This document shows positions 54,495 to 57,141 of a stretch of 64,000 nucleotides of DNA, in pieces. The first letter of the stretch is position 1. Every line of letters starts with the position of its first letter. A model generated the notes under the pieces. It saw only the letters and a list, made by a program, of their open reading frames with translations, did not search any database and was not told the origin of the DNA. The stretch comes from Amaricoccus macauensis (GTDB lineage: Bacteria > Pseudomonadota > Alphaproteobacteria > Rhodobacterales > Rhodobacteraceae): the NCBI RefSeq assembly GCF_014201905.1, contig NZ_JACHFM010000004.1, positions 186,001-250,000 of the forward strand, read 5' to 3'. The position numbers and the translations under genes are program-made.

Positions 54495-54639
54495 CACAGC
54501 CCTCGTCCGGCACAAACAACACATCGGCTGAAAATCGCCTATGGTTTCCCACAGGTCAAGCGGAGCCTTGGGCCACAATTGAGATTTGGCGTGACCTGAT
54601 GCAAGGATGCCAGCCTCCGAAAGTCACCGCCCAATTCCG

Positions 54640-55893
54640 ATGGCATTCTCCTTCTGCCGCGATTGCCTCACCCCGCTCGGCACGGAGGCGCCAAGGTGTC
54701 CGGCCTGCCGATCGCCACGCCTTGCGACTCACCCGGAGCTTGCCACGCTTTCCATTGCCCATCTCGATTGCGACGCCTTCTATGCCGCCGTCGAGAAGCG
54801 CGAGGACCCGAGCCTTCGCGACCGGCCGCTCATCGTGGGTGGCGGCCGCCGGGGCGTTGTCTCCACCGCCTGTTACATCGCGCGAATCCGCGGCGTCCGT
54901 TCGGCGATGCCGATGTTCCGGGCGCTGAAGCTCTGCCCCGATGCCGTCGTGGTGCCGCCGCGGATGGCCCTTTATGCCGAGGTGTCGCGCGCGATGCGCG
55001 CGATGATGCTCGAGCTCACGCCGCTTATCGAGCCGCTGTCGCTCGACGAGGCATTCCTCGACCTGACGGGCACCGAACGTCTGCACCGCGCCCCGCCCTC
55101 GCTGCTGCTGGCCCGGTTGCAGAAACGAATCGAGGCGGAACTCGGAGTGACCGCGTCGGTTGGCCTCAGCCACAACAAGTTCCTCGCCAAGATCGCCTCG
55201 GAGCGCGACAAGCCCCGCGGCTTTGCCGTCATCGGCCGCGCCGAGACCGATGCATTCCTCGCGACTCAGCCGGTGTCGATCATCTGGGGGGTCGGACAGG
55301 CGGGGCTCGCGAGCCTGGAGCGCGCCGGGATCCGCAGCATCGCCGACCTCCGCGCGCGCGACCGCGCCACGTTGGTGCGCGGTTTCGGCAGCCTCGGGGA
55401 TCGCCTGTGGCATCTGGCGCGCGGCGAGGACACCCGCAGCGTCACCCCGGACCGCCCGTTGAAGTCGATCTCGCACGAGATGACGTTCGACCTCGACATC
55501 GCAGACGGCGCCGCTCTCGCACGGTATCTCTGGCAGCTCGCCGAGAAGGTCTCGGCGCGGGCGAAGCGCCTCGATCTCGCCGGCCGGGTCGTGACGCTGA
55601 AGCTGAAGCGGGCCGACCATTCGACCCTGACCCGCCGGCAGACACTGGATGAGCCGACGGTGATGGCCGATCGCCTCTACCGCACGGCCCTGCCGATGCT
55701 GCAGCGCGACATGAGCGCCGGCCCGTTTCGGCTCATTGGCGTCGGCCTCGCCTCGCTTTCGGTTGCCGGGCTCGAGTCCGGCGATCTGCTCAGCGCGGAT
55801 TCCGAGCGACGACTGAAAGCTGAACGTGCCACGGACAGCATTCGAGCCCGTTTTGGTGAAAAGTCGATCATCCTCGGCCGCTCGCTTGAGTGA
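54640..55893 (+). CDS. dinB: DNA polymerase IV with N-terminal zinc ribbon
   Basis: About 417-aa Y-family translesion polymerase. Residues ~1-35 hold a four-Cys zinc ribbon (CRDC...CPAC); the polymerase core follows from IAHLDCDAFYAAVEKREDP, with the catalytic Asp-Glu in LSLDEAFLDLTG, and the little-finger domain at the C-terminus. ATG at 54640 (MAFSFCRDC) is chosen because it puts the zinc ribbon at the start; ATG at 54607 is an in-frame alternative. No beta-clamp-binding motif was noticed at the C-terminus. Confidence 0.92.
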   Translation: MAFSFCRDCLTPLGTEAPRCPACRSPRLATHPELATLSIAHLDCDAFYAAVEKREDPSLRDRPLIVGGGRRGVVSTACYIARIRGVRSAMPMFRALKLCPDAVVVPPRMALYAEVSRAMRAMMLELTPLIEPLSLDEAFLDLTGTERLHRAPPSLLLARLQKRIEAELGVTASVGLSHNKFLAKIASERDKPRGFAVIGRAETDAFLATQPVSIIWGVGQAGLASLERAGIRSIADLRARDRATLVRGFGSLGDRLWHLARGEDTRSVTPDRPLKSISHEMTFDLDIADGAALARYLWQLAEKVSARAKRLDLAGRVVTLKLKRADHSTLTRRQTLDEPTVMADRLYRTALPMLQRDMSAGPFRLIGVGLASLSVAGLESGDLLSADSERRLKAERATDSIRARFGEKSIILGRSLE

Positions 55894-55951
55894 GCGTGAG
55901 GACCGACCGCACCTTTGGCACGCGCGATCGCTATATTTTTAGGCAGTGAAG

Positions 55952-55984
55952 CGAAAATTAGCGCAGGATTCCGAAAATTTGCGC
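55952..55984 (+). promoter_or_regulatory. Paired 13-bp direct repeat upstream of the candidate sRNA
   Basis: CGAAAATTAGCGC at 55952-55964 and CGAAAATTTGCGC at 55972-55984 differ at one base and are exactly 20 bp apart, two helical turns. The second ends 8 bp before the -35 box at 55993. This layout is that of a two-site operator or activator array on one DNA face. No known regulator was recognised. Confidence 0.6.
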
Positions 55985-55992
55985 GGAGGGAG

Positions 55993-56020
55993 TTGACTAT
56001 GCTGCGCCGCGGCATAAACT
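55993..56020 (+). promoter_or_regulatory. Sigma-70-type promoter for the candidate sRNA
   Basis: -35 TTGACT (55993-55998; five of six match TTGACA), 16-bp spacer, -10 TAAACT (56015-56020; four of six match TATAAT). Predicted start near 56026-56028. The nearest downstream plus-strand genes (tRNA, rpmJ) lie beyond a terminator, so this promoter serves only the short interval to 56107. Confidence 0.6.
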
Positions 56021-56025
56021 GATGC

Positions 56026-56107
56026 CCGTGATGCGTTGCATCATACACGCCCTACGGGCGTTTCCTCCCTAAACTTGGGCCGTGCCTCGCGCACGGCCTC
56101 TTTTTTT
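56026..56107 (+). ncRNA. Candidate trans-acting small RNA, about 80 nt
   Basis: A free-standing unit with promoter, structured body and terminator. From the predicted start: hairpin 1 TGATGC-GTT-GCATCA (56029-56043), hairpin 2 ACGCCC-TAC-GGGCGT (56047-56061), an unpaired linker TTCCTCCCTAAACTT (56062-56076) whose CCTCC could pair with Shine-Dalgarno sequences, then a terminator hairpin and seven T residues. No ORF longer than a few codons. The architecture resembles alphaproteobacterial anti-SD sRNAs (CcsR/suhB-like in general idea), but those carry the motif in hairpin loops, not a linker. Family not recognised. Confidence 0.62.
56078..56107 (+). terminator. Strong intrinsic terminator of the candidate sRNA
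   Basis: GGCCGTGC, loop CTCGC, GCACGGCC, then TC and seven T. Perfect 8-bp stem with an unusually strong T-run for this window. Plus-strand direction; hutG on the other strand gets at best a weak structural stop. Confidence 0.92.
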
Positions 56108-56164
56108 GTCCGAGCCGCAATGGCTTGCGGCAGCTTTCAGAGCGAGCAAGGCGTCGTGGCGAGA

Positions 56165-57022
56165 CTATTCCGCGGCCATCGGCAGCGCGCGGGGCGCAAT
56201 CGCGGCCAGCCTGCGCGTCACCTCGGTGAGTCGAGCGGCGACCGCAGCGAATGCGCTACCGCGCTCAACTCGCGCTTCGTCCATGTAGAGCGAGCGGTCG
56301 ATCTCGATCTGCAATGCCTGCACGCCGCGGCGCGGTCGACCATAGGTCTGGGTGATGTAGCCGCCGGCGAACGGCGTGTTCCTCGCCACGAGGAATCCGG
56401 CCTCACCGAACACATCCGCCGCCAGATCGATCAGCCAGCGGTCGCAGGCCGCGCCGAATCGGTCGCCGAGAATCACGTTGGGCCGCCGGCCCCACGCCGA
56501 CGGCGTGGCGTTCAGCGCATCGCGCGGCATGGAATGGCAATCGAAGAGCACCGCCATTCCGAAGGCCGCCCGGCTCTCCTCGATCAGTTCCGTGAGTCGG
56601 GCGTGATAGGGTCGCCACACCGTCAGGATGCGCGACTCCGCCTCGGCAAGGCTGAGCTTGCCGTCAATGATCGCCCGTCCCTCGCCGACCACTCGGGGAA
56701 TCACCCCGAGCCCGGCGGCGATCCTCGGATTCTGCCCCACACGCCCCGCCCCGGCGATGAGGGCCGGGTCGAGGTCCTCCGGGCCGCGGTTGAGATCGAC
56801 CCATGCGCGCGGCGCCCGCGCCGCGAGCAGCGGCGCCCCCGCGTCCGGCGCGGCCGCAAAGAGTTCGTCGACGAAAGCATCCTCCGACGAGCGCAGCTGC
56901 GGGAGCGACAACCTCGAACGGCGGATCAGTTGGACAGGATACTCACGCCCGCTGTGAGGCGAACTGAACACTGCGCATGATCGCCGGTCAGCCGGCATCG
57001 CGAGCTTGAAGGCGTCGTCCAT
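56165..57022 (-). CDS. hutG: N-formylglutamate amidohydrolase
   Basis: 285-aa zinc-dependent deformylase. Conserved SSPHSGREYP, VDLNRGPEDLDP, LFDCHSMPRDAL and the C-terminal LQIEIDRSLYMDE match N-formylglutamate amidohydrolase (histidine degradation last step). ATG at 57022 is preferred; a short upstream extension lacks a ribosome site. No other hut gene is nearby, so a general formyl-amino-acid role is possible. Confidence 0.9.
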   Translation of the reverse strand: MDDAFKLAMPADRRSCAVFSSPHSGREYPVQLIRRSRLSLPQLRSSEDAFVDELFAAAPDAGAPLLAARAPRAWVDLNRGPEDLDPALIAGAGRVGQNPRIAAGLGVIPRVVGEGRAIIDGKLSLAEAESRILTVWRPYHARLTELIEESRAAFGMAVLFDCHSMPRDALNATPSAWGRRPNVILGDRFGAACDRWLIDLAADVFGEAGFLVARNTPFAGGYITQTYGRPRRGVQALQIEIDRSLYMDEARVERGSAFAAVAARLTEVTRRLAAIAPRALPMAAE

Positions 57023-57141
57023 CAGGCATCCCTTTCGCGGAACCATAGCCGGTCAAATCTGCCGGCGAAATGCCTTGAACAGGCGCGCGGCCCCGTCTAT
57101 AGGACTGCCGACGAAACGGCTGCCCTCAGCGGCCGGTTCTC

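Follow-up and report, generated by a model that had tools for sequence, protein, structure and literature searches.

In the window, by which we mean the whole 64,000-nt stretch of Amaricoccus macauensis DNA that was analysed, a small RNA (sRNA) gene is predicted between the gene for a DinB-type DNA polymerase and a convergent gene for an N-formylglutamate amidohydrolase (FGase). The elements of this locus and its two neighbours are the following:

54607-55893, + strand: DinB-type (Y-family) DNA polymerase, the upstream neighbour (PF00817 and PF11799 over cut-off)
55993-56020, + strand: sigma-70-type promoter, TTGACT (55993-55998), 16 nt, TAAACT (56015-56020) (promoter scan)
56000-56014, no strand: imperfect palindrome TGCTGCGCCGCGGCA filling the -35/-10 spacer, with the core of predicted operator 1 at 56003-56011
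56027-56107, + strand: predicted sRNA of ~81 nt, alphaR8/MmgR (RF00519 and fold; 5' end placed from the -10 element)
56028-56044, + strand: SL1, 5' hairpin GUGAUGC-GUU-GCAUCAU, 7 bp, loop GUU, mostly upstream of the Rfam model
56032-56040, no strand: TGCGTTGCA inside SL1, a PhaR-operator-like core (match to YGCRNYGCR; candidate operator 2)
56047-56061, + strand: SL2, weak hairpin ACGCCC-UAC-GGGCGU, 6 bp, loop UAC (Rfam structure and fold)
56061-56070, + strand: seed UUUCCUCCCU, anti-Shine-Dalgarno, the alphaR8 10-mer (fold, conservation, PMC12559287)
56077-56107, + strand: intrinsic terminator, stem 56077-56099 and T-run 56101-56107, seven T (fold, scan, covariation)
56165-57046, - strand: FGase, the convergent downstream neighbour and a marker of alphaR8 loci (PF05013, E 7e-73)

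Anatomy of the predicted RNA

The promoter pair was the only one found in a scan of 55850-56250, where shuffled sequences gave a mean of 0.1. The 81-nt RNA of 56027-56107 has a folding energy of -34.3 kcal/mol compared with -20.3 +/- 2.9 for shuffled sequences (z -4.8), and none of the 200 shuffles was as low. In the minimum-energy fold, the first U of the seed closes SL2 and the other nine nucleotides (56062-56070, TTCCTCCCT) are unpaired. The fold depends on the position of the start. Specifically, an RNA beginning at or before about 56023 could take up a rival fold in which SL1 and SL2 are lost and the seed is still unpaired, as seen in the centroid and in the minimum-energy fold of the longer stretch.

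By itself, the terminator scan was no better than chance, with one terminator found and 0.7 expected. In alignment A1, 97.5% of the cells of the terminator helix are paired, and changes on both sides occur in four of its seven pairs. For the structure comprising SL2 and the terminator, none of 500 shuffles does as well on four of the five measures, and 14 do on the fifth; SL2 is partly misaligned in A1, where 77% of its cells are paired. Of 35 loci from the genus and the family, 34 have a hairpin directly 5' of SL2 versus 774 of 7000 shuffled 34-mers, in a test that takes the best hairpin per sequence and whose shuffles keep base composition only. In these hairpins, each of the five loop-proximal pairs is represented by four or five pair types. 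SL1 is no novelty, because a review already credits MmgR with three stem-loops (PMC7143759).

The original prediction had described a promoter-like pair, two short hairpins, an unpaired stretch, and a terminator with seven T residues, all without an ORF. Each of the four elements is present at the positions listed above, and the proposed placement of an anti-Shine-Dalgarno seed in the linker between the second hairpin and the terminator is supported by the fold and by the RF00519 structure. The statement about ORFs is loosely correct. Mechanical frames do overlap the gene, at 56036-56980 (+) and 55677-56048 (-), and neither is gene-like; the first is antisense to the downstream gene.

Family membership and distribution

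The locus matches the Rfam family RF00519 (suhB, described as MmgR) at 56042-56114. The match spans positions 1-77 of the 77-position model and scores 63.3 bits against a gathering score of 41, and a profile search of the genome found no other match over the cut-off. It is near certain that 56027-56107 is a member of the alphaR8/MmgR family, and the predicted gene is very probably a real sRNA gene. Members of this family bind mRNAs at their ribosome sites, and MmgR of Sinorhizobium meliloti limits carbon storage. The family, which includes SisA, is already known across the alphaproteobacteria, and the gene is neither unrecognised nor separate. The original prediction had taken it to be both, a view contradicted by the full-model match.

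The traits described for alphaR8 RNAs are linkage to FGase, the seed UUUCCUCCCU after a weak hairpin, and a terminator (PMC12559287). The linker-borne seed seen here is the hallmark of the family. It had also been claimed that suhB-type RNAs carry their CCUCC motif in a hairpin loop. This does not agree with the Rfam consensus structure or with PMC12559287, in both of which the motif is single-stranded and lies in the linker that separates a weak hairpin from the terminator. One review locates the motif of MmgR inside the first loop (PMC7143759). The resemblance to S. meliloti MmgR includes the whole-model match, three stem-loops, UUUCCUCCCU in the linker, an FGase neighbour, which is typical of the family, and a PhaR-type promoter palindrome. 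The two differ in size, MmgR having 77 nt and the RNA here an estimated ~81 nt. The SisA-D RNAs of Caulobacter crescentus possess the same linker 10-mer seed after a weak hairpin, and SisA is also linked to FGase (PMC12559287). As an sRNA gene, the locus extends the alphaR8 family to an Amaricoccus-like lineage; Amaricoccus is cited among the PHA accumulators of activated sludge (PMC4070681).

All 11 genus genomes have a match to RF00519 over the cut-off, as do 164 of the 385 genomes sampled from the class, but such matches were rare in the bacterial family (26 of 394), the own genome being counted in each. In another draw, which also counts the own genome, they were found in 3 of 149 order genomes. 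This distribution suggests that most of the bacterial family has lost alphaR8 or diverged strongly, although searches over more than 40 genomes used stricter filters that lose weak matches and may hide some members.

Within the genus, the alignment of 11 loci, from which the paralogue L078 was left out, has a mean column identity of 0.95 for the RNA and 0.86 for the promoter, compared with 0.46 and 0.47 for the two flanks. This is the reverse of unconserved hairpins within conserved flanks, the pattern that the original prediction had named as counting against it. Exact matches to the genus sequence of SL1-SL2 occur in seven records, three from Amaricoccus, three from other Rhodobacteraceae, and one from an alphaproteobacterium.

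The loci over the RF00519 cut-off number 67, with 12 from the genus, 25 from the family, and 30 from the class, the last being a non-random set of the best-scoring matches returned. Motif, SL1 and synteny counts are based on 64 of these. The other three (L057, L098, and L099) were missed by the core filter, which asked for TTCCTCCC[CT] with TTTTT no more than 75 nt away; viewed afterwards, L057 has FGase, whereas neither gene, FGase or DinB, lies beside L098 or L099. The 64 loci are not independent, since some are paralogues (L078, and also L089 and L101, which share a genome) and several come from congeners. When the window's own proteins were used in tblastn searches within ~1.5 kb, FGase was found downstream and convergent at 9 of the 12 loci of the genus, 19 of the 23 of the family, and 22 of the 29 of the class, two of the 19 family loci having it as pieces only, more than 1.2 kb away. 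DinB was found upstream at 9 of 12 genus, 20 of 23 family, and none of 29 class loci. The paralogue L078 (1501-1575, + strand) is a second RF00519 match of 43.6 bits in one genus genome, G529; it has two PhaR-type motifs, and FGase or DinB was not found in its flanks.

The PhaR-type operator and the proposed regulation

The core TGCGCCGCG at 56003-56011, within the palindrome that fills the -35/-10 spacer, fits the published PhaR/AniA operator core YGCRNYGCR and is the predicted operator 1. YGCRNYGCR forms the middle of the PhaR motif of S. meliloti (PMC12542648), a motif similar to the Bradyrhizobium consensus, TGCRNYGCASMA (PMC6201568). According to a review, mmgR is repressed by AniA (PhaR) at a conserved dyad that lies between -35 and -10 (PMC8401924), and binding of the mmgR promoter by S. 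meliloti PhaR was observed by EMSA (PMC12542648). Among the 11 aligned genus loci, TTGACTATG is present in 10, and CATA before or within the -10 element is present in all 11.

The motif is strongly enriched at alphaR8 loci. Within 115 nt on the 5' side of the seed, at least one YGCRNYGCR occurs at 54 of 64 loci, against a mean of 10.0 and a maximum of 19 in 300 dinucleotide shuffles, and two or more occur at 33 of 64, against a mean of 1.1 and a maximum of 5. The stricter form TGCRNYGCA is 34.8 times denser upstream of the seed than in the flanks (60 of 6848 positions vs 32 of 126976). The remaining 10 of the 64 alphaR8 loci have no YGCRNYGCR in this region, though their genomes encode PhaR. 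PhaR is encoded in 64 of the 65 genomes tested, the single exception, G567, being 74% complete, so the sample offers no set of genomes lacking PhaR with which the operator could be compared.

PhaR (155 bits), PhaC, and Hfq are encoded in the own genome, as are three Phasin_2 proteins scoring over cut-off. Upstream of the best-scoring phasin gene, the promoter (L103, ~1254-1290) has two YGCRNYGCR cores 22 nt apart that flank a TTGACG -35 element, and these are likely to be a pair of PhaR operators, judging from the motif. The same arrangement of two PhaR sites flanking the -35 element is described for S. meliloti phaP1 and phaP2 (PMC12542648). The other two phasin genes have no YGCRNYGCR just upstream, and the phaR leader has two isolated looser matches to the operator motif and nothing more. 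Based on the operator-like sequence, it seems likely that PhaR controls the alphaR8 gene here. The presence of a PhaR-type operator at 54 of 64 sampled alphaR8 loci of the class suggests that the link between PhaR, a granule-sensing repressor, and the sRNA is old and not a peculiarity of rhizobia.

A second operator-like core lies inside SL1, 29 nt from the first, centre to centre. SL1 itself is a YGCRNYGCR palindrome at 15 loci, the 12 genus loci and L092, L095, and L101. At these 15 loci, where the arms are TGC...GCA, six different loops are found (GTT, GGT, ATC, ATT, ACT, and GCT), and all have the form R-N-Y, a fit expected for one loop in four if the loop changed freely. Three other SL1 triloops occur among the 35 loci, of which two (CTG) break R-N-Y and one (GCT) fits. 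Operator 1 accompanies the SL1 copy at 14 of the 15 loci, 28-30 nt away, and L077 has the SL1 copy only. It is conceivable, though we consider it somewhat less than an even chance, that SL1 is dual-coded in the genus and a few relatives, serving in the DNA as a second PhaR operator downstream of the start and in the RNA as the 5' stem-loop. The R-N-Y pattern is suggestive only, because of shared ancestry and the small number of loci. S. meliloti mmgR is listed with one PhaR site in a table of PMC12542648, in contrast to the second operator-like motif in SL1 here, and the excerpts of the literature searched describe no site inside an alphaR8 RNA. If the dual coding is real, PhaR would occupy two sites on the gene, and the 5' end of the RNA could evolve only within limits set by the gene's own repressor.

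Overall, it is highly likely that the locus is a single-copy alphaR8 sRNA gene with its own sigma-70-type promoter, producing a three-hairpin RNA of ~81 nt whose seed would block translation and whose gene is probably under PhaR repression. The analysis directly shows the family to which the RNA belongs, its anatomy, its conservation and synteny, the operator motif, and genes for PhaR, PhaC, phasins, and Hfq in the genome. We infer that the gene is transcribed, that its RNA depends on Hfq, and that PhaR binds the operator, as well as the targets and the phenotype. Transcription from the gene's own promoter would start near 56027 and yield the ~81-nt RNA with three hairpins. PhaR (AniA), which would be free when PHB is absent, would probably repress the gene at the -35/-10 palindrome, a step based on the motif and the published EMSA. 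Upon formation of PHB granules, PhaR would be taken up and repression relieved. The seed UUUCCUCCCU, lying between SL2 and the terminator, would pair with purine-rich ribosome-binding sites, probably on Hfq, and so block translation; this step is modelled on SisA. The sRNA would thereby limit carbon storage, the role that MmgR has in S. meliloti.

SisA-D are trans-acting repressors of mRNAs, repression of the reporter or target was abolished when the SisA seed carried a point mutation, and MmgR is Hfq-associated (PMC12559287). The trans-acting mode of action through the seed, as first proposed for this locus, is judged to be right for the putative regulator. By analogy with MmgR (PMC8401924), the phasins are candidate targets. 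The seed forms only generic Shine-Dalgarno pairing with the phasin leaders (-9.3 to -11.6 kcal/mol, a range without a control set). Caulobacter possesses four copies and the sponge CrfA, whereas one copy over the cut-off is found here, and a sponge was sought through perfect seed complements. The complement AGGGAGGAAA occurs at two places in the own genome, one of which is the antisense of the sRNA gene, and this count is not beyond chance, as a reversed-pattern control gives five places. The other place (L107, contig C1:711899-711908, - strand) is the Shine-Dalgarno sequence of a Peptidase_S58 gene, 7 nt ahead of its ATG.

Alternative readings and other anti-Shine-Dalgarno RNAs

The locus could instead be only terminator or regulatory DNA 3' of dinB, either a 3' end produced by processing of the dinB mRNA or a set of DNA palindromes for a regulator, with no independent sRNA. 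The gene does lie 3' of dinB in the same direction, and the promoter spacer, like SL1, is a palindrome of the PhaR-operator type. However, the locus has its own promoter, which is kept at 10 of the 11 genus loci aligned, and the RNA is conserved at class loci where DinB was not found within 1.5 kb (0 of 29). Moreover, the SL1 hairpin is kept with many pair types where it is no operator, and members of the family are detected RNAs (PMC12559287, PMC7143759, PMC8401924). We regard this reading as quite improbable. It is still less credible, to the point of being very hard to sustain, that the gene represents a separate, undescribed sRNA family whose likeness to alphaR8, an anti-Shine-Dalgarno linker with a terminator rich in GC, arose convergently. 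RNAs with a CUCCCU linker are present at other loci in the same bacterial family, hence the design can recur, but the full-length RF00519 score is far over the cut-off, the FGase synteny is retained, and the sequence is continuous through genus, family, and class loci. Membership in the SorY or SorX type of singlet-oxygen RNAs of the Rhodobacteraceae is rejected as having virtually no chance of being correct, since the weak matches to SorX (RF02784) and SorY (RF02651), 29.8 and 28.1 bits, are far under the gathering scores of 46.6 and 111, and a better SorY-like candidate elsewhere in the genome, at 53.7 bits, is itself below 111.

The alphaR8 gene nevertheless shares features with these and other RNAs. 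SorY and SorX also possess a CUCCCU linker before a GC-rich terminator, but their 5' part is different. Cuckoo RNAs are defined by CCUCCUCCC in hairpin loops. The RNA described here resembles the CcsR/cuckoo RNAs in having a CCUCC-type anti-Shine-Dalgarno motif and differs in carrying it in the linker; the predicted loops of 56027-56107 are GUU, UAC, and CUCGC, none of which contains CCUCCUCCC, and it is not assigned to that group.

Weak matches to RF00519 were found at 27 family loci (L011-L037, 31.6-40.7 bits) and at seven loci of the own genome (L002-L008). FGase or DinB was found in the 1.5-kb flanks of 0 of the 27 and 0 of the seven. The linkers of the 27 family loci vary, with CCTCCCTGTTGGACT in 10, CCTCCCTGTCAGACT in 10, another CTCCCT in three, and none in four. 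Because of the lack of FGase or DinB flanks and, for L011-L037, the linker types, the weak loci were rejected as alphaR8 orthologues and are not counted as such. The CCTCCCTGTTGGACT and CCTCCCTGTCAGACT linkers mostly precede a GGCCG-type terminator, and L011-L037 possibly represent two further sRNA groups. In the own genome, L003 (1509-1588, - strand; contig C3 near 693993-694074) is a second sRNA candidate with a CUCCCU linker, carrying ACCTCCCTGTTGGACTTGGGCCGAGC and a terminator, and it is the SorY-like candidate scoring 53.7 bits, below the gathering score of 111.
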